Below, one piece after another: positions 1,886 to 38,091 of a DNA stretch of 38,091 bases. The stretch lies in IMG/VR virus record IMGVR_UViG_3300045972_000130, positions 1-38,091 of that record. One strand, 5' to 3'. Below the pieces are notes generated by a model. That model worked only from the letters and a program-made list of their open reading frames with translations, was not told the DNA's origin and made no database searches. How positions within the stretch are numbered: the first letter of the stretch is position 1; each line of letters starts with the position of its first letter. This stretch comes from a virus. A program made the position numbers and the translations under genes.

Positions 1886-1914
1886 TTGACACCCACGGAT
1901 TACCTTTCTATAAT
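1886..1914 (+). promoter_or_regulatory. Strong sigma70-like early promoter with dyad operator
   Basis: TTGACA (1886-1891), 17-bp spacer, TATAAT (1909-1914): full consensus in both boxes. GGATTA at 1897-1902, then 8 bp, then TAATAC at 1911-1916 forms the dispersed dyad, whose right half overlaps the -10. Outer arms CACCCA and TGGGTG also pair. Start of transcription would be near 1921, giving a leader of about 42 nt to the ATG at 1963. Confidence 0.9.
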
Positions 1915-1962
1915 ACATGGGTGAAACGGTAATTCTGCCCGATCACTTAACCGGAGACTATT

Positions 1963-2523
1963 ATGCATCAGCATACACGCAGTGGCGATGATCGACGCCA
2001 GTCAGAGATTGATGACATTGAGACGGACGAAGGCGATCCAAGCTTCGACGATCTCGAGATTATCCTGAATCCGAAGCCTGTGCCAGACGCAGGCGCGGAT
2101 GACGAAGAGGAAGAGTTTGATGAACTGGAGGACCTGCTCGCAGGTGCGATGGAAGAGCGCAACGACGCGCAAAAGGTCAAGGACGCTCGGGCCAAAGCCA
2201 AGGGCGGATACGGGTTGTCGGCGGATGATCTGGAGCGTATTCGGAAATGGGAACTGGCGAAGGAATGGGTTGCCGTTTCCAACACAGCCATTTTCAAGCG
2301 TTACGTCTGCGCCTGTGGCTTTCACAGCACCGTATTCGAAGGCTTGATGCTGGAGCAAAAGCACCGCCATGATACACACGCGAACCGTTGGACAAGCCAG
2401 GAAAATAGCGTGGCGAATCTACCTAATAATACTGCGATCCGCGTGAAGCACATTCCCATGTGCCAGCGTTGTGCCAATAGCAAAGGGTTTTCCCTTGCAA
2501 CTGACGTGATCTGGCAAGTATGA
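1963..2523 (+). CDS. Acidic, putative zinc-binding early protein, 186 aa
   Basis: First gene after the consensus promoter. GGAG precedes the ATG by about 7 nt. Residues 15-65 are strikingly acidic, with a run of Asp/Glu at 46-58, followed by a helical segment. The C-terminal part has paired cysteines C116/C118 with H121 nearby, a histidine cluster at 134-139, and C167/C170, enough for one or two zinc sites. An acidic tail plus zinc module is compatible with a DNA mimic or a protein that binds host RNA polymerase, but no family is recognised and the role is inference. Its stop overlaps the next start (ATGA). Confidence 0.8.
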   Translation: MHQHTRSGDDRRQSEIDDIETDEGDPSFDDLEIILNPKPVPDAGADDEEEEFDELEDLLAGAMEERNDAQKVKDARAKAKGGYGLSADDLERIRKWELAKEWVAVSNTAIFKRYVCACGFHSTVFEGLMLEQKHRHDTHANRWTSQENSVANLPNNTAIRVKHIPMCQRCANSKGFSLATDVIWQV

Positions 2524-2729
2524 GAAATCATCCACCGCGCTGGCTACTGGCGCTTTACGGAGTAGCGATTGCCGGTGCTTGGGTTATGCTCAGCACCAGC
2601 GACTACCAAGAGGCTCGCAAGATGGAGTGTGCTAACCGCAGTACGCGGAGCACACTCGTCGAGTGGGATTCATCAACTGACACTTGTAAGAAGGAGAAGC
2701 GTAATGGCACGACCGCGCAAAACAGATAG
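2520..2729 (+). CDS. Small predicted membrane protein, 69 aa
   Basis: ATGA overlap with the preceding gene. Residues 8-25 (WLLALYGVAIAGAWVML) form one transmembrane helix after a short basic N terminus, followed by a hydrophilic tail of about 45 residues with two cysteines. The topology resembles a signal anchor. The 3' end overlaps the next gene by 26 bp, and that gene's ribosome site lies inside this frame. The clean translational coupling supports it, but there is no recognised family. Confidence 0.55.
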   Translation: MRNHPPRWLLALYGVAIAGAWVMLSTSDYQEARKMECANRSTRSTLVEWDSSTDTCKKEKRNGTTAQNR

Positions 2730-2892
2730 GCCTTGTGAGAAGAACATTTCCCTGCCGCAGAGCATTGTGATCCGGGTGGAGCTGGAACTGTTCTCTGCAC
2801 TGGAGGGCAAGGTGCCGTTCGGCGCTTGGCAGCGTTACATCGTTCGCTTGATTGAGGCGGATCTGGCGAGGAAGGAGGCCCGGAGTGTGTGA
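2704..2892 (+). CDS. Small ribbon-helix-helix-like protein, 62 aa
   Basis: Start at 2704 is chosen because AGGAG lies 7 nt upstream; the longer frame from 2569 is a shadow of the membrane-protein gene. A basic N terminus (MARPRKTDR) leads into a short beta-type segment (KNISLP, VIRVELEL) and two helices (FGAWQRYIVRLIEADLARK). This order matches ribbon-helix-helix DNA-binding proteins, which dimerise through the strand. It is therefore a candidate transcription regulator, possibly of the dyad operators in this genome, but the assignment rests only on visual pattern. It overlaps the next gene by 8 bp. Confidence 0.7.
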   Translation: MARPRKTDRPCEKNISLPQSIVIRVELELFSALEGKVPFGAWQRYIVRLIEADLARKEARSV

Positions 2893-6037: not shown

Positions 6038-6042
6038 CTTGA

Positions 6043-6071
6043 TTGACACCGGGGGATTATCCCGTCATAAT
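6043..6071 (+). promoter_or_regulatory. Strong sigma70-like early promoter with dyad operator
   Basis: TTGACA (6043-6048), 17-bp spacer, CATAAT (6066-6071). The dyad GGATTA (6054-6059), 8 bp, TAATAC (6068-6073) overlaps the -10 exactly as at 1886. Outer arms CCGGG (6049-6053) and CCCGG (6073-6077) add further symmetry. It starts five bases after the helicase stop and drives the nuclease/recombinase block. Confidence 0.9.
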
Positions 6072-6097
6072 ACCCGGACAATAACCCAAGGAACCCC

Positions 6098-8510: not shown

Positions 8511-8591
8511 GTGCTGGCGACTATCATCATCGGAGTCGTGGTAGTTCGCCTACTGCTTTGGCTCCTTGAAATCTTCCTCGACATTGATTAA
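8511..8591 (+). CDS. Single-helix membrane micro-protein, 26 aa
   Basis: GTG at 8511, one base after the TAA at 8507-8509, with AAGGGG about 8 nt upstream. The 26 residues begin MLATIIIGVVVVRLLLWLLE and end FLDID: one transmembrane helix with a short acidic tail. The coupled position and hydrophobic pattern support expression. It could be a small regulator of a membrane partner; no family is known to me. Confidence 0.45.
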   Translation: MLATIIIGVVVVRLLLWLLEIFLDID

Positions 8592-10050: not shown

Positions 10051-10378
10051 CTAGACCGCAAAGTGTAGGGGGTTATGAGTCCCCTACCATTTGTCAGCCC
10101 TCGGACCAATTTGGAGCTTCGGCTCCCCGCATTTTCCTCCCTTGGTGCGCGTTCGGTCTGAGGGCCTTTTTATTGTCAGCCATACTTGCCCGAGGTAATT
10201 ACCCGTGCTGCACAGTCATTCATCGAAACACCCACGGGTCATAGGCGCGTTTTCCAGCCCTCATGCACCTACGGTATATCCCCGCATTTTTACCCCCGTT
10301 CCCGGTCAATTTAACCCGGTTCTCGGGGTATTCTCGCGCTCATTTTCTCAACCCTAAACCAACCCAAGGAAAACTCCC
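10051..10378. other. 328-bp intergenic region with structured RNA and palindromes
   Basis: Contents in order: a 6-bp inverted repeat at the stop codon (10044-10057), a GTAGGGG/CCCCTAC hairpin (10065-10087), a large terminator with a TTCG hairpin (10097-10170), the palindrome GGTAATTACC (10194-10203) and ACACCCACGG (10227-10236). The last sits in a 14-base sequence (10224-10237) shared exactly with 36623-36636. From 10240 to 10378 I see no good sigma70 promoter, although the next gene starts a new unit. Confidence 0.7.
10097..10172 (+). terminator. Complex intrinsic terminator or structured RNA with UUCG hairpin
   Basis: The outer stem pairs 10097-10107 with 10155-10165 (10 of 11 Watson-Crick) and is followed by a T-rich run (CTTTTTATTG). 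Inside is a perfect GGAGC-TTCG-GCTCC hairpin (10113-10126), the extra-stable C(UUCG)G tetraloop. The 47-nt interior is more elaborate than a usual terminator, so a small stable RNA ending here is possible. Confidence 0.75.
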
Positions 10379-11746
10379 ATGAGATTCATTAAGCTGTCCG
10401 AAATCGTTGTCAAGCCCGACCGCCAGCGCCAGGAATTCGACCCACAAGCGCTGCAAGACTTGGTCACCAGTATCGAATACAACGGTCTCCTGCACCCTAT
10501 CATACTGCGGCAGGAAGGCGATAAAATGGTGCTGGTTGCGGGGGAGCGTCGACTGAAAGCCATGTCTCAGATTTGGGAACTCGGCGGCAGCTTCCGCTGC
10601 GATAATGAGGAAGTGCCCGAGTGCTGCATCCCCTTTTCCAACATCGGGGAACTTTCCCTGCTCGACGCGGAAGAGGCCGAACTCGATGAGAATCTGAAAC
10701 GAAAGGACCTAACATGGCAGGAACACGCAGCGGCGGTGGCCCGGTTGCACAAACTCCGCGGTGCCCAGAAGGTAGAAACCAACAAGACTGCCCCAGTTGC
10801 GGAGCAGGTCCCTGTACAGACCTATGCAGATACGGCATTGGAGATACTCGGCAAATCCGATGGCGGTTATCAGGACCAGATCAGGAAGGAAATCCTCGTG
10901 TCGAAGCACCTGGACAACCCGGCGGTAGCGAAAGCGAAGTCAGCGGACGAGGCGTTCAAGATACTTAAAAAGCAGGAAGAGAGCGCAAAAAATGTCGAAC
11001 TTGCGCGCGTTGTCGGTGCATCCTTCAACTCCGACCTGCACCAGCTCATCAACATCAACTGCTTGGAATTCATGGCCAGCTGCGCTGAGGGCCCAGAGGA
11101 AAATAAGTTCGACGTCATCCTCACCGATCCTCCCTATGGCATGGGGGCAGACCAGTTCGGGGATGCCAACGGTCGCCTGGCTGGTATCGAACACCGCTAC
11201 GACGACTCCCCCGAGGCTTGGCGCGACCTAATGGGACTCTGGACAGTTTTGTCCTACCAAGTCTGCAAGCCGCAAGCTCACGCATACGTCTTCTGCGACA
11301 TTGATATGTTCCATGAACTAAAAGCTATGATGCAGAAGGCTGGCTGGTACGTCTTCCGCACTCCCTTCATCAACCACAAAATGAACTCTGGACGAGTTCC
11401 CCTCCCTGACCAAGGACCAAGGCGCCAATATGAAATCATTCTTTACGCGATCAAAGGGAAAAAGCAGACTACTCACATTTATCCAGATGTTATATCCACA
11501 TCTGCGGATGAGAACTTCTCTCACGGAGCCCAAAAACCCGTCGCACTTTACCAAAATCTTCTACAACGAAGCGTCCGACCTGGAGACCGAGTGCTTGATA
11601 CTTTCGCGGGCAGTGGAACAATATTCGAGGCGGCGAACGGATTTCAGTGCTCTGCAACAGGAACCGAACTCAACCCAGAATACTACGGAATGTGCCTCGC
11701 AAGAATCGCCAGATGTAAGGCCCTCGAGACCGCAGACCTTTTTTAG
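10379..11746 (+). CDS. ParB-like/DNA methyltransferase fusion, 455 aa
   Basis: Residues 1-120 are a ParB/Srx-type domain: a beta-rich opening, NGLLHPIILR (35-44), GERR at 55-58 and a DENLKRKDLTWQEHA-like helix near 103-117. Residues about 215-455 are a class-beta N6-adenine or N4-cytosine methyltransferase: DPPY at 250-253 (motif IV) precedes FAGSG at 409-413 (motif I), with KPVALYQNLL just before motif I. The methyl donor is S-adenosylmethionine. The ParB-like part may guide the enzyme to sites or act as an NTP-dependent switch. No partner restriction enzyme is nearby, so self-protection or regulation is likely. AAGGA lies before the ATG. Confidence 0.92.
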   Translation: MRFIKLSEIVVKPDRQRQEFDPQALQDLVTSIEYNGLLHPIILRQEGDKMVLVAGERRLKAMSQIWELGGSFRCDNEEVPECCIPFSNIGELSLLDAEEAELDENLKRKDLTWQEHAAAVARLHKLRGAQKVETNKTAPVAEQVPVQTYADTALEILGKSDGGYQDQIRKEILVSKHLDNPAVAKAKSADEAFKILKKQEESAKNVELARVVGASFNSDLHQLININCLEFMASCAEGPEENKFDVILTDPPYGMGADQFGDANGRLAGIEHRYDDSPEAWRDLMGLWTVLSYQVCKPQAHAYVFCDIDMFHELKAMMQKAGWYVFRTPFINHKMNSGRVPLPDQGPRRQYEIILYAIKGKKQTTHIYPDVISTSADENFSHGAQKPVALYQNLLQRSVRPGDRVLDTFAGSGTIFEAANGFQCSATGTELNPEYYGMCLARIARCKALETADLF

Positions 11747-11755
11747 AGAACTCCC

Positions 11756-14131
11756 ATGACAATAAGACCAACAGGTCCAGCTCCGGCTAGGATCATGATA
11801 GTAGGGGAAGCTCCGGGCGATCAGGAGATTCGAGAGAGTGCACCGTTTGTAGGCTACTCCGGTCAGGAGCTGTCGAGAATGCTGCAAGAAGCTGGGATCA
11901 TCCGTTCGACCTGCTTCATCACCAATGTCATCCGGATTAAACCTCCAGGTGGCGACATTGCGTCGTTCATTGCAGAGAAGAAATCTGCGATAACCCCACA
12001 ACACAAGCTAGTCCGCGACAAGTACTGTATGGCTCCGGTTTGGGAAGGCATTAGCCTACTGGAACGCGAGATCGAGATGGTCAAGCCTAACATCATCATC
12101 GCCCTTGGCAATGTTGCGATGTGGGCGCTGACGGGCAAGTGGGGCATCACCTCATGGCGGGGTTCCCTGCTCGAATGCAACCTAGCCCTGCAAGGCATGG
12201 ACCGTCCAGTAAAGGTAATCCCTGCCTACTCCCCAACAATGGTCATGCGGCAGTGGAGCTGGCGGCAGATACTCGTCCACGACCTGCGGCGGTGCAAAGC
12301 GCAAGGGGAGTACCCGGAGATTATCCGCCCGGATTACAAATTCATAATCCGCCCGGATTACGGCACGGCAGTAACCTACCTCCAGACCCTACTCCAACTG
12401 GTCGAGGCCAAGCCCACAACGTTGTCAGTTGACATCGAAACGCGCTCAGGGCATACTGCCTGTATCGGCATCGCGTGGAGTAAGTTAGAAGCGATCTGCA
12501 TCCCATTACTGTGCAGCGAACGTCAGACCGGCTACTGGACGGAGGACGAGGAAGCGTTCCTCACCTATCTGATGTACAAGCTGCTCACTCACAAGAATGC
12601 AGAGGTGATCGGGCAGAACTTTAGTTACGACGCCCAGTACTTCTTCCGTCATATGCACTTCCTCCCGAACCTCAAACGGGATACGATGATTGCCCAGCAC
12701 GTTTGTTTTAGCAATATGCAAAAAGGCCTGGATTTTCTCGCCTCCATGTACTGCGAATCCTACACCTACTGGAAAGAGGATGGCAAAACATGGGATGCCA
12801 ACACTGGTGAAGACCAGCTATGGTCCTACAACTGTCAAGACGCCGTTATCACCTTCGAGGTCGATGGGGTCGAGCAGCGCAATGTCGACGCAATGGGTCT
12901 CCGCCCAGTCCACGACTTCCAGCAAGCCCTCTTTTGGCCGGTGCTGCACACCATGAACAAGGGCCTCCGTGTAGACACATCTCGCCGCAACGCTTTCGCC
13001 CTCGAACTAATGGATGAAATCGCAGCCCGCGAGCAATGGATGATCGACGTACTCGGCGAGTCCCTCAACATCAAGTCCCCTAAACAAATGCAGGAGTTAT
13101 TCTATGGAGCCCTTGCCCAAAAGCCGATCCTTAATCGGAAAACCGGGACTGTCACCACTGATGATGAGGCTCTTGGTCGAATGGCTGATCGTGAACCAAT
13201 CCTACGACCCCTCGTCAAGAAAATTCAGGAACTTCGTTCACTTGGAGTTTTCCTCTCCACTTTCGTCAATGCACCTCTTGACGTGGATGGAAGAATGCGC
13301 TGCAGTTTTAACATCGCAGGGACTGACACCTATCGCTTTAGTTCATCCCAAAATGCATTCAACTCAGGACTTAACCTCCAGAACATCCCTAAAGGTGGTG
13401 GCGGAAAAGACCAACTACAGCTTCCAAACGTTCGATCTCTTTTCATTCCCGATCCCGGGAAAACCTTTTTCGACATCGACCTCGCTAGCGCTGACTTACG
13501 AATTGTCGTTTGGGAGTCAGACGAGCCCGAAATGAAGCGTATGCTGTTGGAAGGCTACGACCCGTATACTGAAATTGCCAAGGAATTCTACCATGACCCT
13601 ACGATCTCGAAAAAGGACCCTCGCCGTCAGACGTTCAAGGGCTTCGCACACGGTACAAACTATCTCGGAACGGCTAAGGGCCTTGCCGAACGGCTGGGTT
13701 TGGGAGTTGCCGAGGCAGAAAAAACGCAGCGATGGTACTTTAATCGTTTCCCAAAGATCAAGAAGTGGCAAGACGATCTTAAGGATCAAGTTGTCAAGCG
13801 TCGTATGGTGCAGAATATCTTTGGCTACCGCTGCTACTTCTTCGACCGCATTGAAGGCACAATATTCAACCAAGCGGCTGCGTGGATACCTCAATCAACT
13901 GTTGCGTGCCTAATCAACCGCGCTTACGTCGCCATCGACCGGGACTTGCCGCAGGTCGACATTCTCCTACAGGTGCATGACAGCCTGGCTGGACAATTCG
14001 ACACAACCCTCGGTGACTGGATGGTCAAGCAAATCGTAGACAAGGCGGAAATTCCTCTTCCCTACGATGACCCCTTAATCATCCCCGTGGGTGTGAAAAC
14101 TTCAACAGAAAGCTGGGGTGGCTGTGAATAA
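11756..14131 (+). CDS. Uracil-DNA glycosylase-like/family A DNA polymerase fusion, 791 aa
   Basis: Residues 1-180 are a family 4/5-like uracil-DNA glycosylase fold: GEAPGDQE (17-24), PFVGYSG (30-36), TNVIRIKPPGG (56-66) and AYSPTM (157-162). The usual His of the last motif is Ser, and the N-terminal cysteines of Fe-S enzymes are missing. Proofreading motifs follow: DIE at 226-228, N288..YD at 291-292, Y358..QDA at 361-363. Polymerase motif A is 571-582 (D575, with D580 where Klenow has Glu), motif B R624...K628.......Y636, motif C HDS at 741-743 instead of HDE. It should be the replicative polymerase; similar fusions occur in SPO1-like phages. The linker repeats IIRPDY. Confidence 0.93.
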   Translation: MTIRPTGPAPARIMIVGEAPGDQEIRESAPFVGYSGQELSRMLQEAGIIRSTCFITNVIRIKPPGGDIASFIAEKKSAITPQHKLVRDKYCMAPVWEGISLLEREIEMVKPNIIIALGNVAMWALTGKWGITSWRGSLLECNLALQGMDRPVKVIPAYSPTMVMRQWSWRQILVHDLRRCKAQGEYPEIIRPDYKFIIRPDYGTAVTYLQTLLQLVEAKPTTLSVDIETRSGHTACIGIAWSKLEAICIPLLCSERQTGYWTEDEEAFLTYLMYKLLTHKNAEVIGQNFSYDAQYFFRHMHFLPNLKRDTMIAQHVCFSNMQKGLDFLASMYCESYTYWKEDGKTWDANTGEDQLWSYNCQDAVITFEVDGVEQRNVDAMGLRPVHDFQQALFWPVLHTMNKGLRVDTSRRNAFALELMDEIAAREQWMIDVLGESLNIKSPKQMQELFYGALAQKPILNRKTGTVTTDDEALGRMADREPILRPLVKKIQELRSLGVFLSTFVNAPLDVDGRMRCSFNIAGTDTYRFSSSQNAFNSGLNLQNIPKGGGGKDQLQLPNVRSLFIPDPGKTFFDIDLASADLRIVVWESDEPEMKRMLLEGYDPYTEIAKEFYHDPTISKKDPRRQTFKGFAHGTNYLGTAKGLAERLGLGVAEAEKTQRWYFNRFPKIKKWQDDLKDQVVKRRMVQNIFGYRCYFFDRIEGTIFNQAAAWIPQSTVACLINRAYVAIDRDLPQVDILLQVHDSLAGQFDTTLGDWMVKQIVDKAEIPLPYDDPLIIPVGVKTSTESWGGCE

Positions 14132-19579: not shown

Positions 19580-20170
19580 TTAAGGATTCCCGACGAAGGC
19601 GCCGGAAGCTGCGTTGAATGCGTTGAAACCTGCGTGGCGAACGTACCCCGGAAGGTTGGGAGGGGCCAAAGCCTTCGCCGTAACATAGGCTGTCGTGGCG
19701 AGCTTTGAGCTGTTATCGGAGGTCAGCTGCGTAGGCGCGGTCGGGGCTCCCGTCAGTGCAGGGGATGCCAACGGCGCAAAGCTATCTGCAACGAATTTCG
19801 TATTCGCCACTTGTGTGCTATTCGTGCCCGGTGCAGCTGTTGGAGCCACCGGTACACCAGTCAGGATCGCATCACTAGCAGTAGGAGTGACCAAGACAGG
19901 ACTCGTAAACGTCCCGCCCGTGAACACCTGGGCAAACGTCACCGCATCCGCAGGGTTAACCCCGGTGCCCAGTCCTGTAATCTTGTTCCCTCCCATCGGG
20001 AGATTCGCCGTCATCGGGCTCTGCCCATCCCGCGTCATCACAGAGGAAAGCCCCGTGAAAACGTCATTCATCGTCGCGTTGAAGTAACTCGCGAGAATAT
20101 AAGTGTTCGGCACCGCCGGGAACGTCGGGGTCCCCAGGGATGTGAAAAGTCCTACTCCATTGTAAGGCAT
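19580..20170 (-). CDS. Tail fibre protein, 196 aa
   Basis: Contains the fibre signature MTANLPMGGNKITGLGTG followed by NPADAVTFAQV (residues about 53-83), and two repeats of the type PxAPT...STQVANTKFV and TAPTQL..SSKLATTAYV (110-170), as in phage tail-fibre repeat domains. The N terminus (YNGVGLFTSLGTPTFPAVPN) is probably the virion-attachment part. At 196 aa it is short for a fibre, so receptor binding may reside in the downstream glycine-rich protein. A dyad operator lies 25 bp upstream of the start. Confidence 0.85.
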   Translation of the reverse strand: MPYNGVGLFTSLGTPTFPAVPNTYILASYFNATMNDVFTGLSSVMTRDGQSPMTANLPMGGNKITGLGTGVNPADAVTFAQVFTGGTFTSPVLVTPTASDAILTGVPVAPTAAPGTNSTQVANTKFVADSFAPLASPALTGAPTAPTQLTSDNSSKLATTAYVTAKALAPPNLPGYVRHAGFNAFNAASGAFVGNP

Positions 20171-20184
20171 ACTGTGTGCTCCTA

Positions 20185-22701
20185 TTATTCCGGGGGATTA
20201 CTGTCTGATAATCCGGGGGAATTACCCATCGTACTACCCCAGGTTCCCAAGATCACTTGTGCTTTGCGGGACATGACTGGTACCTTCCCCAATTCAATGA
20301 GCATTTTAGCGCCCTCGGGAGATGTGAGGATAGTGTCTAACTGGGAAAGTGTCTTGCCGAAGGTGTGGCGTTCAATGGCCTCCCCGACCCTGTTTACAGG
20401 CAGGAAACTAGCCACACGGACGAGGTTGGCGACATTGCTGGCACTACCCATTTGTTTCAAGTCAGCAGGTGACATACCGCCAATATTCCTTGGACGAGAC
20501 TCCATTGCGGTTGTCAGTTGGCGAAGATTTTCCAGTCCACGAATCATATCGGTCGCAGGCAGTCCCCGCACATCAGCCATCGTTTTCGTAGCATCCTTGA
20601 TCCCCTGCCACTGCAATGGGTCATTGAAAACCTTAGAAGCCAGTGTACTGGGCTCCGCAGTAGGCAGGGCGGAACCACCACCGCTGGCAGTCGTAGCCGA
20701 CTGGATCTTCCGAGATAGCCAGCTTTTGAAGGCTCCTTCGAATGCAGTAGGGTCGACTTTTGCGAGTTCCTTACCAGCCGTAGCAATGTCGGAGACCTTG
20801 GCAGTCGGGTCCGTACCGCGGTTCATCAGACCATCGAACTTGCTAACCATCGCAGCCGTGGCTGGGTCAGACCCGTGATTCTGGGCTAGGAGACCAACAG
20901 GGCCTTGACGAAGCGGGTTAACGGTGGAGTCGGTAAAATTGCGGTAAGCTGTGTTGGCATTCTTGATTGGGGTGAAGCCTTGTCCGAGGTCCGTGCGGAT
21001 CGAATCCACGACACCGCCGAGGAACTTACTCACCCCCGCATCCATGCCTTGCGTTTGCAGGTCAGGGGATTTGAGGCGGGTTGTGAACTGGGTCAGCACG
21101 CGGTTGATCTGCATGGGGTCAGTTAATGGGCCGCTGTCCGTATGCAGTCTTGCAAGCAACCCCGACAGTTCCGAAGCCTCAACCGAGTTTGGCCGTGCCG
21201 CGATAATCCCCTGCAATTTTGACTGCATGGAATCGAAGGTCTGTGGGGGGATGGATTCGGTTGCAGCCATACCCTGCCGAGCCTTAGCTAACGCTTGTGC
21301 GGCTTGTGACTGCCTCTGCTCCTGCTGCGACAGCCCCTGCTGCGCGAGTTCGAGTTCCCGTTGTTTCGCAAGTGTAGGGATACCGGGAGCTTGTTCCACA
21401 GCAGGGGTAATAGCGTTGCCGAGTGCATCTCGCTTCACTTCTCGCCCGATGGAGTCATAAATGATCGACTGACCGCGTTGGGGGAGAGTAGAGTAGCTTC
21501 CCGAATTCGTAGAGGTAACCCCGCGAGGCAGGCTAAAATTCTTGAGACTTTCGATAAGACCCTGGCTTGCTTCTAGCTTCTTATTCAAAGCTGCAACAGC
21601 TGCCACATCCCCAGCCTTAGCTGTGGCGAGTTCGTTCATGAGGGTATTGACCTGCGAACGAGCCTGTCCAACGGAGATTCCAGTCTCTTTCAGAAAGTCC
21701 TGTGCTGCACTTACCTTGATGCCTTCTGATGCTTTCAGCGCAGCGACCCCATCCTGCACTGTCTGTTCCCACAAATCGGAGCGAGTTTTCTTCGCATTTT
21801 CGATAGCAGTAGTGGCAGTCTTTTGCAGAAAGTTAGCATTGGAAGTTGCGGAAAAGTTGGTTCCCGGCAAGCTGCCTACGGTAAGTTCCGCTTCCCGCGC
21901 CAAGGCTTCTGGCTGCCCACGCAAGGTACGCTGCACGCCGTCGCCCTGCACACGACCAGCCAGGAAATCCCGTACGGAACCCAAGTTTCCGGAATGGCCG
22001 CTAGTCGCTTGCAACGCCTGCGCGAGGTCGATGTCAATCCCCTTTTGGGCCAGTTGGTTCTTATACTGCTGCGCAGCGTTTAACTGATCCGGGGTAAGCC
22101 CCTCCATCGCTTCGCGTGCAACGTCAGCTGTTTGAGGACGGACCCGTGCGGCTACGGCAGCAGTTGTACCAGCAACCAGCCCGCCAGCGACGCTACCAGC
22201 GACACGCAAAAGCGGGTTCGGATTCCCATTGGCCAGCTGCTCCGCGGCTTGGTCCCCCAACCCTGCGCCTGCACCAGCTGCCATGTTAACTGCGGAAGCC
22301 GGGCCAGTTGTAAGCGCACCACCAACTCCACGAAAGGCTTTCTGCCCCCAGACGTTGTTGTTGGACTTATCTCCGACTTCCTTCCAATAGCGTTCTGCGG
22401 AGTCTGCGACGTCGTTTGCGCCGGCAGCCAGGCCATTATCCTCGGGCAGGAAAGCTTTCGCGAGGTACCCGACCGCACGAGGTGCCATGCTTGCAGCCGT
22501 GCCGAAGCCACTCGCTAAGTCACGGGCAGTACTTTCGAGGAAGCCAACTTTTGGTTCCACACCGCCGTCCAGCTTCACTACTTTTTTCCCAAAGTCCTGA
22601 GTAGCGCGCTGCGTCACCACCTCCGGCGTGAGGTCATCCGGGGCATTCTCGTAAACGTGAGAAGTCCCGTCTTCAAAGTCTACTGTAATGCGTCGTGCCA
22701 T
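20185..22701 (-). CDS. Large internal virion/DNA-ejection protein, 838 aa
   Basis: Residues 1-45 form a small domain (ITVDFEDGTSHVYENAPDDL...) often found at the N terminus of podovirus ejection proteins. A Gly/Ala-rich hydrophobic region follows (about 60-195) that could insert into membranes, then long helices with Gln/Ala-rich coiled coil (450-480) and a flexible C terminus. The size, order and place after two other large virion proteins fit the three P22-like ejection proteins that form a channel across the envelope. Start overlap with the upstream gene is one base. The last codons contain the dyad operator. Confidence 0.75.
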   Translation of the reverse strand: MARRITVDFEDGTSHVYENAPDDLTPEVVTQRATQDFGKKVVKLDGGVEPKVGFLESTARDLASGFGTAASMAPRAVGYLAKAFLPEDNGLAAGANDVADSAERYWKEVGDKSNNNVWGQKAFRGVGGALTTGPASAVNMAAGAGAGLGDQAAEQLANGNPNPLLRVAGSVAGGLVAGTTAAVAARVRPQTADVAREAMEGLTPDQLNAAQQYKNQLAQKGIDIDLAQALQATSGHSGNLGSVRDFLAGRVQGDGVQRTLRGQPEALAREAELTVGSLPGTNFSATSNANFLQKTATTAIENAKKTRSDLWEQTVQDGVAALKASEGIKVSAAQDFLKETGISVGQARSQVNTLMNELATAKAGDVAAVAALNKKLEASQGLIESLKNFSLPRGVTSTNSGSYSTLPQRGQSIIYDSIGREVKRDALGNAITPAVEQAPGIPTLAKQRELELAQQGLSQQEQRQSQAAQALAKARQGMAATESIPPQTFDSMQSKLQGIIAARPNSVEASELSGLLARLHTDSGPLTDPMQINRVLTQFTTRLKSPDLQTQGMDAGVSKFLGGVVDSIRTDLGQGFTPIKNANTAYRNFTDSTVNPLRQGPVGLLAQNHGSDPATAAMVSKFDGLMNRGTDPTAKVSDIATAGKELAKVDPTAFEGAFKSWLSRKIQSATTASGGGSALPTAEPSTLASKVFNDPLQWQGIKDATKTMADVRGLPATDMIRGLENLRQLTTAMESRPRNIGGMSPADLKQMGSASNVANLVRVASFLPVNRVGEAIERHTFGKTLSQLDTILTSPEGAKMLIELGKVPVMSRKAQVILGTWGSTMGNSPGLSDSNPPE
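20195..20214. promoter_or_regulatory. Perfect dyad operator GGATTA-N8-TAATCC
   Basis: GGATTA 20195-20200, 8 bp, TAATCC 20209-20214, within the last codons of the 838-aa gene and just upstream of the tail fibre. It has no matching -35 in either direction, so it is a candidate binding site rather than a promoter. It is flanked by C/G runs as at the other sites. Confidence 0.6.
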
Positions 22702-28721: not shown

Positions 28722-29459
28722 TTAGGTGATGGCGCCCTGTGCGAATGGGCGGTTGAAGTGAGCCACGTTGTAGAAGATCACACCATTGTTGTAAGTAGCT
28801 GTGATGCTACCACCGACAATGGCTGCGGTACTTGCTGCGGACATGGTGACGTAACGGCCGTCAGCAGAGATCGAGGCGATGGTAGTGCCACCTGCGATAC
28901 CTGTACCGGACAAGTAGGCACCAACGAACCAGCCATCGCTGTTTGGCACTTGCAGAGTCGTGGACAGACCGATGGTGTTGCAACCTGCCTTGACGACGGT
29001 AGCGGCGGCAGCAACCACAACGCGAGCGTTGAGAATCTGCTTACCAGCGGCAACTGCACCACCCTGACCTGCGGCTGCAATACCGAAGGAGGTATCTGCT
29101 GCGACGGAGGCATTGCAGGAGACAGGACAGAGACCAGAGATCTGGAACCAGCCGTAGTCACCGAGTGCCATCGTTTTCACCGCCACTGCCACGGAACGAC
29201 CCAAGTTGGCTGTGTTAGCGACTGCTGTAGCGTCGTAACGATAGCTGTTCAAGGTCGAATCGAACACTGGCAGGAAGGATGCCAAGTTGAACGCTGGGAT
29301 CGCACCAGCGGCGCGTGCGTACATGAACTCCCCGAAACCCCACCAAGGATCGGTGAAGGGGGTGATCAGACCAGGCTGAACGCGTGGTACGGCGTCGACC
29401 GTCAGGCCGGACAATTGGATCGGTGCAGTACCGACCAGACCATTTACTGAAGCATACAT
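28722..29459 (-). CDS. Putative capsid decoration/structural protein, 245 aa
   Basis: Directly downstream of the capsid gene. It is rich in Ala, Gly, Thr and Val, with repeated strand-like segments (GTGIAGGTTIASISADGRYVT; ASTAAIVGGSITATYNNGVI). The C-terminal half (about residues 130-245) resembles an Ig-like or beta-helical surface domain, and the N-terminal segment (DPWWGFGEFMYARAAGAIP) may bind the shell. These properties fit a head decoration or stabilisation protein, but no family is confirmed. AGGAG precedes the ATG. Confidence 0.62.
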   Translation of the reverse strand: MYASVNGLVGTAPIQLSGLTVDAVPRVQPGLITPFTDPWWGFGEFMYARAAGAIPAFNLASFLPVFDSTLNSYRYDATAVANTANLGRSVAVAVKTMALGDYGWFQISGLCPVSCNASVAADTSFGIAAAGQGGAVAAGKQILNARVVVAAAATVVKAGCNTIGLSTTLQVPNSDGWFVGAYLSGTGIAGGTTIASISADGRYVTMSAASTAAIVGGSITATYNNGVIFYNVAHFNRPFAQGAIT

Positions 29460-29498
29460 GGATGATTCTCCTAATTACTGAGATTGATAAAGTCCCAC

Positions 29499-29518
29499 AG
29501 ATTACCGGATGATAACCC
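29499..29518. promoter_or_regulatory. Degenerate dyad operator between capsid and decoration genes
   Basis: AGATTA (29499-29504), 8 bp, TAACCC (29513-29518), followed by the palindrome CCCGCGGG-like core (29516-29523). It is the same spacing and core as the promoter dyads, in the 71-bp gap between two highly expressed genes. No convincing -35 is found. Confidence 0.45.
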
Positions 29519-29530
29519 GCGGGAATTACT

Positions 29531-30511
29531 TTAGGCCTTGAGCACGCCTTGCAGACTGCGGTTCGAGCAGATCAGGTTACCCATCCAGAGGATTGGCACC
29601 ACGGCAGCATCTTGGTTGTAAGGCTTCATTTCATCCATGATAGCCATATCAGCGTCCTTGTGCACGACCAGATCCAAGTAGTCAGTGTTCAGGAAGTACA
29701 TGCGGTTGGCAGGGATGCCGGAACCACCGTCGAAGATCACGTCAGCATTCTTGTACTTCAACGACACGAAGCCGCCGTTGGCCTTGTCAGCACCCTTACC
29801 ATCACTGGTATAGCGCTTGATTGAGGTCTGTGACTGCTCGTAGAAGGTGAAGTAGTTGTTGTCAGCGATGATCACGTCAGGACTGTCGTCACCACGGACC
29901 TGGGCCAACCACAGGGGCAGCATCAGAGATTCAATGGTTGTTGGTCCGGGAGTGATAGCACCACCACCTTGCAGCGGGGCTGCGGCGGATTGCACCAACG
30001 ACTTCCAGAAAGCCCAGGCGGACGAGTCGATACCACCAACGGTGCCAGTGCCGGTATCGGACACGAGAACTTGCAAACCGCCAACTTGATTGGGCAACGT
30101 GCCGTCAGAGTAGATATCTGCCGAGAAGTTGTTCTTGAAGGTGCGGATAGCGTTCTTCATCCGGGCTTTCACCAGATTGATGATGCGGCTGTCACCACTG
30201 TTGGTGCGCAGTTCCAAGCCCGAGGCGATCACATTGATTGCGATCTGGCGCCACTGGTACTCAGCTGCGGAGATCACATCGCTTGCACCAACGTTCAGCA
30301 CGTCGTAACCGGAGTAGCGTTGGTAAGTGCCGTTTGCAGCGTAGTCGAGTGGGGCGACGATGGTCAGACCGCCGTCTTCCTTGCGAGTACCCTTGATGCC
30401 GAGGCGAGCAAGCAGCGCGTTGTTCTTGGACACGTTGTCCTTGATGTCTTTCGAGTGCTTACGGAAGGTGGTTGAGACCAGTTCCGTGAAGACTGCATTT
30501 GGAGATGCCAT
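29531..30511 (-). CDS. Major capsid protein, HK97-fold type, 326 aa
   Basis: Opens with MASPNAVFTELVSTTFRKHS, an N-arm helix, then KNNALLARLGIKGTRK (E-loop neighbourhood) and TIVAPLDYAANGTYQRYSGY. Further on are IYSDGTLPNQVGGLQVLVSD, DVIIADNNYFTFYEQSQ and the final PILWMGNLICSNRS. These are common landmarks of a class of HK97-fold capsids in podoviruses and siphoviruses. Position after the scaffold gene and AGGAG ribosome site support it. It forms the icosahedral shell after scaffold exit. Confidence 0.9.
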   Translation of the reverse strand: MASPNAVFTELVSTTFRKHSKDIKDNVSKNNALLARLGIKGTRKEDGGLTIVAPLDYAANGTYQRYSGYDVLNVGASDVISAAEYQWRQIAINVIASGLELRTNSGDSRIINLVKARMKNAIRTFKNNFSADIYSDGTLPNQVGGLQVLVSDTGTGTVGGIDSSAWAFWKSLVQSAAAPLQGGGAITPGPTTIESLMLPLWLAQVRGDDSPDVIIADNNYFTFYEQSQTSIKRYTSDGKGADKANGGFVSLKYKNADVIFDGGSGIPANRMYFLNTDYLDLVVHKDADMAIMDEMKPYNQDAAVVPILWMGNLICSNRSLQGVLKA

Positions 30512-31565: not shown

Positions 31566-31979
31566 CTACTTCCTATCTATTGAAACATCAAGACCTGTTT
31601 GAACCGCGGTGGCCAAAGCCTCCCGCTTTTCCGTGGGCAGGGTCTCGTAAAACTGCTCCACCGTACTCTCTACCTCTCTGTCGAATTTCGCCTCTTCTTG
31701 GCTACGGCTGCGGCGTGCTTGATCTGTTTCGCCCCCTTCAAGAACCCGACATTCGTGCCTTTTAAGGTTTTCCTCGTGCGCCCTTCTGCCCTCAATCCAT
31801 TTTCCAGAGATTGGGCAGGCGTACCCGGCGTAGTCGCCCATAATAGCTGGGGCTGAAAGTTTCCTTTCCATCGTGACTTGACAGGCTTCACAGGGTTCCT
31901 CTCTATCTAGCTGGGCAAGGGGTTTAAAAACGTCACGCTGGGCGAGGCATCCGGGGCATCGGTAAGTATAGATAGGCAT
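31566..31979 (-). CDS. FmdB-like zinc-ribbon protein, 137 aa
   Basis: MPIYTYRCPGC at the N terminus with C8/C11 and C30/C33 is the FmdB regulatory zinc ribbon. Residues 55-85 contain another Cys and a Gly-Lys-Trp segment, and the last 50 residues are helical (EVESTVEQFYETLPTEKREA). Such proteins often lie between portal and scaffold in phages of this type; their role is unknown. It may bind nucleic acid or act in assembly. It overlaps nothing and ends two bases before the scaffold start. Confidence 0.8.
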   Translation of the reverse strand: MPIYTYRCPGCLAQRDVFKPLAQLDREEPCEACQVTMERKLSAPAIMGDYAGYACPISGKWIEGRRAHEENLKRHECRVLEGGETDQARRSRSQEEAKFDREVESTVEQFYETLPTEKREALATAVQTGLDVSIDRK

Positions 31980-31988
31980 AACGTCGAG

Positions 31989-32008
31989 GGATTATTGGGC
32001 TTTAATCT
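31989..32008. promoter_or_regulatory. Dyad-like site GGATTA-N8-TAATCT at the end of the portal gene
   Basis: GGATTA 31989-31994, 8 bp, TAATCT 32003-32008, one mismatch from the perfect dyad, overlapping the stop codon of the portal gene. It could belong to the same operator set or be chance; it lacks the flanking C/G signature of the promoter sites. Confidence 0.3.
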
Positions 32009-34256
32009 GTTGGGATTTCAATTTTGCCTGGCCTTTTTGCACCTGCCCCTGAACGTGCAGCGTCGCGGCCTCTTGCGCACTGGCAATGCCTTGGTTTACC
32101 GCTTGTTGGTGCAGATCAAGTTCCTTCGCAGTCATCTGTTTATGCAGGGCGATCTCACGGAGGGTGAATTGCTTCTCCATTGCAAGTTCCTTTTGCTGGA
32201 ACTGCAGGTCGGCGGCTTGCTGGGCGTGCTTTTGATCAGCCGCCATGCTCGCCTGTTGCAGAGCCTGTTGCTGCTGCTTGATCTGCTCAGCTTGCTTGGT
32301 GAGTTCATCCTGCTGCTGTTTGAGTTGGTCGGGATTTTGCTGAGGAGCAGGGGCTTTCATCTCTTTCAGTTGATCTTCCAGCTCCGGGCCAAAGCGATAA
32401 CGGCGGACAACTGCAAGCAGAATGCCCTGCGCAACGGAGAATGGCATCGTACCGTCCTTAACCATTGGGCCGACGCCGTTGAGGAACTGGCTCATAGCGT
32501 TAAGCAGCTCAGAAATGTCCTGTTTGTCCTCTGTCGCCTCCGCATCTACAGTCGAGTTCGTCTCAATGTCGATCCGGTAGCTGCGCTGGGTATCGTCCTG
32601 CAGTAGCTTAAGCAAATCCTCCCAAGCAGGCATGGAGAGGGCTTGTTGGACCTCTGGCGGCACCTGTGGAGGTGGTGGGGGTTGCTGGCCAGCCAGTTGA
32701 GCTTGCTGCACAACGGCCTGATACTGCTGCGTCATATGCTGCATCATCATTTGCATCTGCAGTTTCTGCGACTGGAAGGGGAAGGGCAGGCCCGTCATCG
32801 CCTTCATCGTCTCTGGGGAGAGCTTGCTCACAGCGATTTCCGCCATAATCCGCAGGCAATCTCGGCAATACCGCATGACAGCCTTCTGGGTCTTTTTCAG
32901 CCGCAGGGTGCCCCATTGGTTCTTGATCTGCTGAGCCCCGAGCGTCTCCGAAGCCTGGCTGCTACCACGCATAATGTCGGCAATACCAGTGATTTCGTAA
33001 ATAACGGTCTTTATCTGGGTGCGGTTGAGGTAGAGCTGCTGTAGAACAGCAACCAGCTTCTCAATCGGCATCAGCCAGATGGCTTTTTCCAGTGCATTAC
33101 CTTGGGCAAGCATAGCCGCGACGTTTTCTGCCGCAATTAGCACGTTATCCTCAGCCGCCATAACCTTCTCAATCCCCTCAACTGTCGCATCGTACATACC
33201 GCGCACTTTCAGCGCACTGGTAATCTTGTTGATCCGAACAGTGATACGGTTGAGCTCTTTCGCCTGGGCTTCATACATCGTGTAGAGCGGCACAGGGATG
33301 AGGGATCTGATTTTCGAGGTAAAGGTAAGTGGCTGTGGCCATGGGAAGAATCCAGAGAGGCCAAGCGGGTCCGGAACCAGTTTCAATGCACCTTCTTTCC
33401 ACGAGGGGCTGATGAAAATTACTTGCTTTTCCTCTTTATCCCAGATTTCGTAGACTTGTGCGGTTTTGATACCTTTCAAGTCATCATCCTTCGCCATCGG
33501 GTCGGACTCATCCCCGGTGGTGGAGGCTTTCGACTGCTCTGCCACCGGAACCTTAGCACCCAGCACTCCGAAGTTCTTCTCCAGCTCTTCCCGGGTCATG
33601 AAGTGCTCAATCGCTCCCCACGGAACATCTTTCCACTTCTTCGCATTGCCATGCAGGAAGCGATCCCAAGGAACTTCTTCACCGCAGACGGTTTCATACT
33701 TGATATTTTCCGGTGGAGGAGTTTCCACTCCGGCTTCCGGTTTATCGTCGCTGCCCTCTTCGTCGGTTTCAGCGTTTTCCGCAGCATCCTCATTCTGCAC
33801 GGACTCCATAACTGCGTCGTATTTGAAACGAGTAAGGCCACGACCGGGGACTAGACCTTCCAGAACTGCAGATGACATGAGGTCATCGAAACTCGTGTAT
33901 GAGGCATCGCCATTGTCGATCAGGTACTCCAGTGTGCGCTCTGCGGCCTTGCTCGCCATCTTTCCCAATGGGTCTTCGTCCTTGAAGCGCCGCTGAACGA
34001 TAGGTCGGGGCGTGCTGTTGTACAGTGCCGGCAGCATCGTCTCCGTGTTGGAGTAGAGGATGTTGTACTGATAGTCATCAGCCTTTTCCCCTTCATAGAG
34101 GTCAACGATTCGGTTAGCCTCCTTCCGCCAGTTCTTCTCTCGCTTCTTCGCTTCGGCAAGCTCCTTCAGCCACCAAGTGACAACTTCGGATTCAGGGGAG
34201 TTGTCTTCCGACTTTGCGGTGCTTTTAACTCCGATTTCGTTGAGCTGTATGGACAT
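31992..34256 (-). CDS. Portal protein, P22-like, 754 aa
   Basis: Residues 25-70 (WWLKELAEAKKREKNWRKEA followed by RIVDLYEGEK) and SNTETMLPALYNSTPRPIVQ are typical of P22-like portals. The central segment IRSLIPVPLYTMYEAQAKEL followed by NRITVRINKITSALKVRGMY is the conserved core, and TGIADIMRGSSQASETLGAQ lies near 430-450. From about 640 a long Gln-rich coiled coil forms the barrel end. It makes the dodecameric DNA gate and docks the terminase and adaptor. Start overlaps the large-terminase stop (TAATG). Length is within the P22 range (725 aa). Confidence 0.93.
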   Translation of the reverse strand: MSIQLNEIGVKSTAKSEDNSPESEVVTWWLKELAEAKKREKNWRKEANRIVDLYEGEKADDYQYNILYSNTETMLPALYNSTPRPIVQRRFKDEDPLGKMASKAAERTLEYLIDNGDASYTSFDDLMSSAVLEGLVPGRGLTRFKYDAVMESVQNEDAAENAETDEEGSDDKPEAGVETPPPENIKYETVCGEEVPWDRFLHGNAKKWKDVPWGAIEHFMTREELEKNFGVLGAKVPVAEQSKASTTGDESDPMAKDDDLKGIKTAQVYEIWDKEEKQVIFISPSWKEGALKLVPDPLGLSGFFPWPQPLTFTSKIRSLIPVPLYTMYEAQAKELNRITVRINKITSALKVRGMYDATVEGIEKVMAAEDNVLIAAENVAAMLAQGNALEKAIWLMPIEKLVAVLQQLYLNRTQIKTVIYEITGIADIMRGSSQASETLGAQQIKNQWGTLRLKKTQKAVMRYCRDCLRIMAEIAVSKLSPETMKAMTGLPFPFQSQKLQMQMMMQHMTQQYQAVVQQAQLAGQQPPPPPQVPPEVQQALSMPAWEDLLKLLQDDTQRSYRIDIETNSTVDAEATEDKQDISELLNAMSQFLNGVGPMVKDGTMPFSVAQGILLAVVRRYRFGPELEDQLKEMKAPAPQQNPDQLKQQQDELTKQAEQIKQQQQALQQASMAADQKHAQQAADLQFQQKELAMEKQFTLREIALHKQMTAKELDLHQQAVNQGIASAQEAATLHVQGQVQKGQAKLKSQQIKAQ

Positions 34257-35971: not shown

Positions 35972-36565
35972 TTATTCTCCTAAAGTTGTAGGTTCTGGCG
36001 GGAGCATGACTGCTTCGCAGATAGGCATCATCGCGCCGAGGCCGGGTGTGCGCTGACTGATATGCTGATGCATTGCCGCCCAGTCCTCCGGGCTCTGCAC
36101 CTTGGTCGGCATCGCCACGACGAAGTTCGTCTGCACGTTGAGGTTCTGCTGGCGAGCTCCATAGCCGAGGGCTTTGCTACTCAGCTCCAGTGCCTTCAGC
36201 GCCGTATCGGGGTTTTTCGTAACCGTCAGCTTCTCCATTATAATATCGAGAGACTGATTTGCGAGAGCGCGAAACTTTTCATCCAGCGTCAACGCGATGG
36301 AGGGGTCTACCAGATCCCTCTTTCTCTCGGCCAGCCGTGCCAAGAACGCGTCGCTGTTGACAACCCGGGAAACCCAGGCTTGCGTGTAGCCGAACTGCTG
36401 TGCCAAGTCGCCTTGCTTGATTTCAGGGTTGGCAATCATCAGGTCGATCATCGCGTCGTGTGAGTATTTCACCCGCTGAATGGCCAGCGCCGCGCTTTCC
36501 GTTCCGGCGAGGGGCTTGCTTTGCTGACGTACCCAATCGTCGATTGCTGCTGTGGGGTCATCCAT
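35972..36565 (-). CDS. terS: Terminase small subunit, 197 aa
   Basis: Start at 36565 (MDDPTAAIDDW) has GGAG seven bases upstream; the longer frame to 36634 would overlap the late promoter. A helix-turn-helix at about residues 50-70 (KQGDLAQQFGYTQAWVSRVV) would recognise the packaging site. The central helices (90-135, LDEKFRALANQSLDIIMEKL) would form the ring, and the C terminus contacts the large subunit. It is the first gene of the late operon, 20 nt from the predicted transcript start. Confidence 0.85.
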   Translation of the reverse strand: MDDPTAAIDDWVRQQSKPLAGTESAALAIQRVKYSHDAMIDLMIANPEIKQGDLAQQFGYTQAWVSRVVNSDAFLARLAERKRDLVDPSIALTLDEKFRALANQSLDIIMEKLTVTKNPDTALKALELSSKALGYGARQQNLNVQTNFVVAMPTKVQSPEDWAAMHQHISQRTPGLGAMMPICEAVMLPPEPTTLGE

Positions 36566-36590: not shown

Positions 36591-36619
36591 AGCGTAGCAG
36601 ACTTATCGCCCCCTGTCAA
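36591..36619 (-). promoter_or_regulatory. Late promoter candidate, leftward
   Basis: On the minus strand TTGACA (36619-36614), 17-bp spacer, TACGCT (36596-36591). The -35 is perfect and the -10 is weak (3 of 6), as expected for a promoter that needs an activator. The dyad at 36635-36654 lies about 16 bp upstream of the -35, a natural activator position. Predicted start near 36584 gives a leader of about 20 nt to the small terminase. Confidence 0.55.
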
Positions 36620-36634
36620 GCCCGAAACACCCAC

Positions 36635-36654
36635 GGATTACTATTTCATAACTT
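36635..36654. promoter_or_regulatory. Dyad site GGATTA-N8-TAACTT upstream of the late promoter
   Basis: GGATTA 36635-36640, 8 bp, TAACTT 36649-36654, with CATAAC at 36647-36652 in the -10-like position. The 14 bases 36623-36636 recur at 10224-10237, and ACACCCACGG is shared with the 1886 promoter. In the plus direction the -35 would be GAAACA, so promoter activity is uncertain; binding-site function for late control is more likely. Confidence 0.55.
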
Positions 36655-36860
36655 CCCGGATATTTCCGACCACCCTTTGCCATCAGTAAGCCTACCGGGT
36701 TGAAACCCATTTTTACTCCACTCATGACTGACAATTCGTAGACGACAGATGCAGGTTGGGGGACGTTGAAAATGGCAGCGGCGCGTGGGGGTGCTATGCG
36801 CGTAAACCCCCGGCCGCGAGACCCCCGGCCTGCCGACTCACCACCCCCGGTCGAGTTATT

Positions 36861-37116: not shown

Positions 37117-37641
37117 ATGACAAACGAAATTACACGCACGCCAGCCATTAATGCAACGGTCGATATGGAAAATGTGAATGATCCTACGCTGACCCTCATA
37201 TTTGGTAATGGCGAGGTTCTGTGTATCATGGCGCATCAATTGACGGTAGAACTGGCCCAGACCGCTATGATGCATGGACTGAAGCAGAAATTAGTCGATG
37301 CTGCCGCTATTAGTCGAAACCCCGACACCGGACGCACAGCTTCCGTGGATGATAAATACAACGCAGTGAAGGAGGTTTTTGACCGTCTGATTGCTGGCCA
37401 GTGGAATAAACAACGCGACGGCGCTGGCGCGACCAAGGGAGGCTTGTTGTTCCGTGCGCTGTGTATGTTGTACGCCGATAAAACCCCAGATGCTATCAAG
37501 GCATTTCTGGACAAGAAAACTGCCACGGAAAAAACTGCACTACGCAACACAGCGAAAATCGCTGCCATCATTGCAACCCTCAAGGAGGATGATGACAACG
37601 GCGATGTTGACGTGGACGCTATGCTGGATGAGCTGAACTAG
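37117..37641 (+). CDS. Conserved phage protein, 174 aa, paralogue of the 1213 gene
   Basis: GAGG lies 7 nt before the ATG. First gene of the rightward early operon. The N-terminal half is divergent (MTNEITRTPAINATVDMENV), but residues 95-174 match the 1213-1755 protein: GQWNKQRDG, DAIKAFLDKKTATEKTALRN, TAKIAAII and the final DVDAMLDELN. Both have short acidic ends. Function unknown. It is followed by a perfect intrinsic terminator, so it is an independent, probably abundant, early product. Divergence of the N terminus suggests a changed partner or ligand. Confidence 0.85.
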   Translation: MTNEITRTPAINATVDMENVNDPTLTLIFGNGEVLCIMAHQLTVELAQTAMMHGLKQKLVDAAAISRNPDTGRTASVDDKYNAVKEVFDRLIAGQWNKQRDGAGATKGGLLFRALCMLYADKTPDAIKAFLDKKTATEKTALRNTAKIAAIIATLKEDDDNGDVDVDAMLDELN

Positions 37642-37685: not shown

Positions 37686-37695
37686 ACGTCTGGGC

Positions 37696-37726
37696 TTTTC
37701 ACCCGTGGATTATTGGATCATAATCC
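37696..37726 (+). promoter_or_regulatory. Early promoter with perfect dyad operator, reading toward the junction
   Basis: TTTTCA (37696-37701), 17-bp spacer, CATAAT (37719-37724). GGATTA 37707-37712, 8 bp, TAATCC 37721-37726 is a perfect dyad overlapping the -10. Transcription would cross the origin-like locus and reach the gene at 281, or act as an origin-activating or primer transcript. Confidence 0.75.
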
Positions 37727-37883
37727 GACCGGAAAATGGACCCCGATTCTATCCCCCGATGCCGTTTAAACCGATTCTATGGCACCATACGGCCACGCGC
37801 CACCCGAGCTGGTACATTAGTATGCAAAACCCGGATCGTTCATTTAAACCCCCAAAAACCAGGATTGTGTAACAAGCTGGCCA

Positions 37884-37964: not shown

Positions 37965-38091
37965 CCGTTGTACCGTTGTACCGTTGTACCGTTGTACCGT
38001 TGTATCCAGTTTATTTTTTTTTTAAATTATAAAGGAGGGTAAGCCTATGGTGGGGGAATGTACTCATGATAACACCCCATAATGCCACGCA
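37965..38091. repeat. Terminal direct repeat, right copy
   Basis: Exact copy of 1-127, containing the five CCGTTGTA units (37965-38004), the A/T tract and the strong Shine-Dalgarno with micro-ORF (38047-38082). Confidence 0.95.

Follow-up and report, generated by a model that had tools for sequence, protein, structure and literature searches.

A dispersed four-half-site operator with an early-promoter repression geometry in a group of related phages

The virus record IMGVR_UViG_3300045972_000130, a stretch of 38,091 nucleotides analysed in full and referred to here as the window, carries dispersed copies of a dyad with the core GGATTA-N8-TAATCC. We favour, at a probability of roughly 0.58, the interpretation that this dyad forms the inner portion of a 46 to 48 bp operator for a phage-encoded DNA-binding protein, with a 62-amino-acid early protein as the candidate, and that the bound protein would shut early promoters and act as a roadblock at copies that lack a promoter. 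The broader proposal of a dispersed phage regulon with a repression geometry at early promoters appears well supported by the sequence comparisons described below.

With DNA polymerase and major capsid protein as queries, 128 related viral stretches were gathered, and approximately 40 related phages carry the element, at about 6 to 18 copies per genome. The two ends of the window (positions 1-127 and 37965-38091) form a 127-bp direct terminal repeat with an 8-bp tandem (ACCGTTGT), and the record is therefore very likely a complete, circularly closed assembly.

The repeated dyad and its spacing

The repeated dyad is real. All eight core coordinates listed in the initial annotation were correct when checked against the sequence, and the perfect 6+6 dyads are indeed those at 12331, 20195 and 37707. 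The remaining copies depart from GGATTA-N8-TAATCC by one mismatch (1897, 6054 and 31989), two (29499) or three (36635). With up to two mismatches allowed, the window holds 10 matches, a count that is not reproduced by 100 dinucleotide-preserving shuffles (0.82 ± 0.95 expected, maximum 4). With up to three, there are 19 matches versus 9.3 in shuffles, where the maximum is 18. Two further candidates, a two-mismatch dyad at 8585 that lies upstream of Sak4 and a weak match at 10245, were not counted as operators.

The 8-bp gap proved to be strict among the relatives, where approximately 2 Mb of sequence contain 34 perfect and 70 one-mismatch dyads with this gap, versus 0 to 2 and 0 to 8, respectively, for other gaps from 0 to 20. 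Because the relatives conserve the gap, the question of chance can be considered settled. Neither outcome that the initial annotation had named as refuting, a similar dyad count after permutation or unconserved spacing in relatives, was obtained. The idea that chance or coding repeats produce the dyads can draw on the codons at 12331, which encode a repeated peptide (RPDYKFIIRPDY), but it is opposed by the conserved spacing, by motif scores above those of controls, by the ranks of the DNA polymerase copy, by synteny and by the shuffles. We regard its probability as negligible, since the conservation of spacing and synteny already refutes it.

A larger element with four half-sites

Palindromic motif searches conducted at 22 bp, and later at 48 bp, converge on a 46 to 48 bp element that was recovered genome by genome in the window and its relatives. 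GGATTA-N8-TAATCC represents only the inner half of this quasi-palindrome, which comprises four half-sites of alternating orientation (outer >, inner <, inner >, outer <) with successive centre-to-centre distances of about 13, 11 and 13 bp; an example from relative G009 reads GTAATCCGnnCGGATTACnnnnnnGTAATCCGnnCGGATTAC. Motif scores range from 117 to 914 in the seven genomes tested, versus 72 to 89 in Markov-shuffled controls. A second control, in which genomes were reversed without complementation, was uninformative because palindromes survive reversal. The eight window sites also resemble one another in their outer flanks, as evident from leave-one-out scoring in which only 1e-4 to 4e-4 of random positions score higher. 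The outer flanks, together with the 48-bp motif, therefore identify the dyad noted earlier as the inner half of the operator.

In an unsupervised dyad scan, many relatives had a dyad in the same register and with other letters at or near the top of the ranking, with the caveat that period-3 coding patterns outscored dyads in some G+C-rich genomes. The leading letters are GGTTATG in G002 and G003, GGATTAA in G008, ACATTACT in G010, GTATTACAA in G011 and G012, GTATTACTC in G014 and GGAATACG in G024. Operator letters differ between lineages and agree within one genome, and for this reason all sites of a genome would be read by one diffusible factor. The suggestion in the initial annotation that a single regulator serves the dispersed sites is thus sustained by lineage-specific letters that are shared within each genome, the DNA polymerase copy included.

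Operator positions are constant while letters drift

The expected numbers of genomes quoted in this section assume a uniform distribution of operators along the genome, and intergenic seeds were favoured, so that expectations at intergenic spots would be several-fold higher and the figures are somewhat inflated; this bias does not change the conclusion on synteny. Operator 1 (1883-1930, core 1897-1916) lies over the early promoter of the operon that encodes gene 1963-2523 and the 62-amino-acid protein. An operator at this spot, downstream of the homologue of gene 1189-1755, is present in 36 of 43 genomes (3.7 expected). Operator 2 (6040-6087, core 6054-6073) likewise lies over an early promoter, downstream of the Dda helicase gene, as found in 22 of 43 genomes (1.3 expected). 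Operator 3 (12317-12364, core 12331-12350) places all four half-sites within the DNA polymerase coding sequence, and the same polymerase position is occupied in 23 of 43 genomes (0.7 expected).

Operator 4 (20181-20228, core 20195-20214) overlaps gene 20185-22701 at its 3′ end and lies a short distance upstream of the minus-strand gene 19580-20170; an operator just before this minus-strand gene is present in 20 of 29 genomes (0.4 expected). Operator 5 (29485-29532, core 29499-29518) occupies the gap between the major capsid gene and the minus-strand gene 28722-29459; an operator just after the capsid gene occurs in 27 of 30 genomes (0.5 expected). Operator 6 (31975-32022, core 31989-32008) sits at the boundary between gene 31992-34256, which is in the portal position and whose end is overlapped by the core, and the minus-strand zinc-ribbon gene 31566-31979, the start of which carries an operator in 7 of 30 genomes (0.4 expected). 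Operator 7 (36621-36668, core 36635-36654) lies upstream of the late promoter predicted for terS, and 32 of 42 genomes have an operator upstream of terS (2.3 expected). Operator 8 (37693-37740, core 37707-37726) is downstream of the early gene 37117-37641. Operator positions therefore remain constant while the letters drift between lineages.

Promoter anatomy at early and late sites

The promoter at operator 1 comprises a -35 element, TTGACA (1886-1891), and a -10 element, TATAAT (1909-1914), separated by an N17 spacer. That at operator 2 comprises TTGACA (6043-6048) and CATAAT (6066-6071) with the same spacer. An overlay of the dyad on promoters with a 17-bp spacer had been described for 1897, 6054 and 37707; it is exact at the first two, while operator 8 lies over a weak promoter-like sequence, TTTTCA-N17-CATAAT, with a poor -35 element. 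At the 1897 and 6054 spots of several relatives, the outer half-site contains TTGAC(A/G), and the far inner one reads (C/G/T)ATAAT. In the commonest early-promoter placement, the -10 element starts at +2, that is 2 bp to the right of the operator centre, and the -35 element is in the outer half-site. The overlap with both -35 and -10 that marks an operator-regulated early phage promoter is therefore found at 1897 and 6054, and recurs at the same offset in several relatives. A protein bound to the operator would cover the promoter at these two sites, which is a clear repression geometry. In genomes G010 to G015 and some others, the operator is upstream of the predicted early promoter and not over it. 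Operators 1 and 2, like the sites of many relatives, have a recurring (A)ACTG or GCTTGG just before TTGAC, which is possibly an extended -35 element or a site for a second regulator.

The predicted late promoter of terS (36591-36619, minus strand, TTGACA-N17-TACGCT) precedes a terS start at about 36565. The core at 36635 is 15 bp upstream of this promoter, in agreement with its earlier description as lying just upstream of a late promoter. This arrangement raises the possibility of an early-to-late switch, in which the protein would both repress early promoters and, from its upstream site, activate the late promoter of terS. In many relatives, an operator is positioned upstream of a good sigma-70-type terS promoter (32 of 42 genomes, as noted above); counted from the operator centre, the -10 element falls at +42, +48 or about +70. 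However, the distance between operator and terS promoter varies in helical phase. The operator centre lies at about -60 from the predicted start in the window, about -54 in W01 and about -82 in a group of relatives, and no fixed phase was found among the relatives. Furthermore, the remaining late sites lack promoters, as the operators in the gap that follows the capsid gene and in the one that precedes gene 19580 coincide with no promoter of note. We consider such a switch possible, though doubtful. The proposal of the initial annotation that one regulator might repress early units and switch on late ones thus survives in its first half, as a repression geometry at 1897 and 6054 that recurs in relatives, and loses ground in its second.

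The promoterless sites in late gene gaps and in the DNA polymerase gene would fit roadblocking better than activation, and the absence of promoters at these sites is the one reason for proposing it. The spread of sites over early and late regions, with one inside a gene, can also be read to mean that they organise, partition or package phage DNA, comparable to matS or parS, and that promoter overlap is incidental; the near-universal presence of a ParB-domain/methylase fusion in the relatives adds to this reading. Its probability is low, however, given the exact overlay on -35 and -10 elements at early promoters, the placement in gene gaps, the fusion of ParB to a methylase and the fact that no ParA was noticed. 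In the window, the fusion is encoded at 10379-11746 and joins a ParB N-terminal domain to an N6/N4 DNA methylase.

The copy within the DNA polymerase gene

In 23 genomes, an operator is located within the coding sequence for DNA polymerase residues 182 to 189. When motif models were built for 51 genomes from the other operators only, the polymerase copy fit the other operators of its own genome best, with rank 1 of 51 in 14 of the 23 genomes and a median rank of 1. Lower ranks were obtained for the window (6 of 51), W01 (7) and G001 (18). The window encodes EIIRPDYKFIIRPDY at this site, and G002, with TGTGTGG in its operators, encodes DFKCVDYRFIIRPDF; the corresponding peptides of G022 and G005 are EVLGPQYEFILRPRF and EYLRPQYRFVLRPQY, respectively. 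From these comparisons, the polymerase protein sequence appears to have followed the operator.

One trans-acting factor would explain both the fit of the polymerase copy and the change in the peptide, whereas chance and local constraints do not. We regard this copy as the strongest single argument for such a factor. It may also offer a testable case in which a regulatory site within a gene forces an amino-acid change in a replicative DNA polymerase.

A 62-amino-acid early protein is the probable binder

The likeliest reader of the operator is a basic protein of 62 amino acids (2704-2892, plus strand), encoded in the operon behind operator 1. A homologue is present in 26 of the 27 genomes of the first set, and the exception (G011) is a contig truncated in that region. 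Three genomes that have only the capsid gene in common with the window (G037, G038 and G040) have no 62-amino-acid protein, no early module and no operator above the null. The homologue is present and a clear operator absent in distant genomes G018, G033, G034, G036 and G053, and in Microcystis phage Mel-JY34. Another distant relative, G017 (L287-L288), has a different repeated dyad, GGGCGG..TAA(C/T)T..A(A/G)TTA..CCGCCC, and a homologue of the 62-amino-acid protein was not found there.

Divergence of the protein was compared with that of the operator. Among close-relative pairs with a polymerase identity of at least 0.68, 0.70 and 0.72, identity of the 62-amino-acid protein is the best tracker of operator similarity (partial rho 0.38, 0.45 and 0.62; p 0.007, 0.003 and 0.001, which are indicative only, as the thresholds were explored and chosen after looking). 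Values for Sak4, exo and gene 9535 are similar, though weaker, and at a threshold of 0.65 the protein equals Sak4 (0.25 and 0.26). Across all 43 genomes, covariation between protein and operator is not clearly beyond phylogeny by a global Mantel test and column-by-column tests.

The initial annotation had pointed to this protein as a ribbon-helix-helix candidate. It remains the best candidate binder on the grounds of its presence and of divergence tracking, while membership in that class was searched for and not found: there was no ribbon-helix-helix match by Pfam (25 members), a PDB profile search, hhalign to Arc and Mnt or Foldseek, and a PF01402 search of 21 genomes gave no match at this protein. 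Family, profile and fold searches placed it in no DNA-binding family. Repressors of the Arc/MetJ/CopG type have a strand followed by two helices, dimerize through an intertwined strand and read half-sites about one helical turn apart. The AlphaFold2 monomer (mean pLDDT 90.6) has helices at residues 19 to 29 and 41 to 61, and no strand was assigned at residues 11 to 17. The protein reads like a member of the ribbon-helix-helix class, and the two helices of the model follow the expected order; that identity is not confirmed, and we have not filed it there. The half-site spacing of the operator (13, 11 and 13 bp between centres) is compatible with binding of this type. Overall, the 62-amino-acid protein is the probable binder of the operator.

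The operator might instead be read by another early phage protein, acting alone or with the 62-amino-acid protein. The product of 1963-2523 (plus strand) is a candidate secondary regulator: it is encoded by the first gene behind operator 1, is zinc-ribbon-like with invariant C-x-C, H and C-x2-C residues and an acidic N-terminus, and is represented by homologues in no fewer than 23 of the 27 genomes. Other candidates are the 1189 and 37117 paralogues, the terS product and the ParB-methylase. Homologues of 1189 and 37117, as well as terS, are nearly universal, and the terS product, the small terminase subunit by position (35972-36565, minus strand, just upstream of the terminase large subunit), has an HTH and a sub-threshold Crp-HTH match. 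However, 1189, 37117 and terS occur also in genomes without a clear operator and do not track its divergence, as their values for the same close-relative pairs are near zero or negative. In addition, no PDB structure matches the AlphaFold2 model of 1189 significantly (best E 7e-3 at TM 0.17), and the 1189 family is strongly conserved, unlike the drifting specificity. No regulator was named when the small early proteins were compared with PHROGs and Pfam. We consider a different early reader rather unlikely. Genes 1189-1755 and 37117-37641 encode paralogous, strongly conserved early proteins, and the 1189 model consists of a beta domain and helices.

The core also resembles the sites of CRP, FNR and NtcA, which have a GTG-N8-CAC type of register. 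TTA-N8-TAA is in this register, a likeness that concerns the core only, and one could imagine that a CRP/FNR-type global regulator of the host reads the sites. Such a reader is very improbable in view of four half-sites over 46 bp, the fast lineage-specific drift and the lack of a phage CRP-family protein. A phage-encoded CRP/FNR regulator, suggested by this register and by the public label ‘cyclic nucleotide-binding domain’ on the syntenic gene of MW202489.1 (557-1111), was rejected, as that gene is at the terS position and its HTH match is sub-threshold only. The label looks like a misannotation.

In the favoured mechanism, the 62-amino-acid early protein would bind the operator as several cooperating dimers. 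Early promoters, including that of its own operon, would be shut off by covering the -35 and -10 elements, and promoterless copies in late gene gaps and in the DNA polymerase gene would present roadblocks to passing RNA polymerase. In this manner, one protein might quiet the whole genome or pace its expression.

Comparison with known systems

By analogy, the system would work most like the stoperators of Cluster A mycobacteriophages and looks most like the 17-bp dyads of Cluster O. A stoperator-bound repressor stops elongation and maintains lysogeny. As with stoperators, many operator copies are dispersed over each phage genome. The stoperators of L5 and Bxb1 likewise serve one phage repressor from dispersed sites, some at early promoters and many promoterless, and their motif varies among related phages, where it has been compared with repressor distance (PMC6550527, PMC9283540). 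They are, however, 13 bp long, asymmetric and mostly oriented with transcription, number up to about 30 per genome, and are bound by a monomeric repressor in temperate phages (PMC6550527, PMC9283540). In contrast, the operators described here are 46 to 48 bp long, two-fold symmetric rather than asymmetric and transcription-oriented, and present at about 6 to 18 per genome in phages in which no integrase was found.

Corndog and other Cluster O phages (five close genomes) carry more than 30 copies of an invariant 7-3-7 dyad of 17 bp, mostly off promoters; their binder is unknown, and stable lysogens were not recovered (PMC4351075). These dyads are similarly symmetric, genome-wide, located between and within genes, and conserved in position (PMC4351075). 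The present system differs by its four half-sites, fewer copies, drifting letters, clear promoter overlay and candidate binder.

The SPBRE element of Bacillus prophage SPbeta, also repeated at many phage promoters, was found in silico years before its single phage master repressor, MrpR, but it is a 15-bp motif in promoter regions and MrpR has a tyrosine-recombinase fold (PMC10516654). At Pant of P22, the annotated Arc operator lies within TTGACA-N17-TATATT, so that a small early protein represses from between -35 and -10, as proposed here. Arc has a single 21-bp operator, however, and hhalign detected no sequence similarity of the 62-amino-acid protein to Arc or Mnt. In E. coli, the ribbon-helix-helix repressor RelB cooperatively reads four repeats in one operator, relO, although these are 6-bp repeats in a compact autoregulatory toxin-antitoxin operator that is not genome-wide (PMC2812701). 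In our search of the open literature, none of the systems compared has a symmetric 46-bp operator with four half-sites, drifting letters, fixed positions and a copy in a DNA polymerase gene. Few systems are known in which a phage silences its whole genome, and the element would extend them by dispersed operators that are symmetric and promoterless.

A phage group with exchanged structural modules

In genomes G010 to G015 (L167-L186), the late structural genes of the window are undetectable except for terS, and the early module and operators are kept. The capsid gene of the window is undetectable in these genomes and in G044, G045, G047, G055, G056 and G058, where the early/replication module and operators are common to all. 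These gene contents suggest that the structural module was exchanged wholesale in all twelve. Isolates with the same capsid or primase (ppBjS10J-1, BUCT555 and Mel-JY34) carry no operator set, no relative turned up when bacterial genome contigs were searched with the polymerase to find prophages or hosts, and the searches made for an integrase found none.

We would give even odds to a more extensive proposal, that these phages, in which no integrase was found, represent an undescribed and widespread family with operators set genome-wide at fixed positions and a recognition code that has often changed, giving dozens of specificities as in an immunity system. In this proposal, the code is strong enough to bend the amino acids at one spot of DNA polymerase, and it remains with the early/replication module through exchanges of the entire structural module. 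The group could serve as a natural data set of protein-DNA co-evolution, with probably one small protein, four half-sites and about 40 lineage-specific codes at fixed positions, and would allow a prediction of which related phages should be mutually immune. As a minor observation, the label ‘class D beta-lactamase’ on a very short open reading frame of MW202489.1 (39992-40171) also looks like a misannotation.
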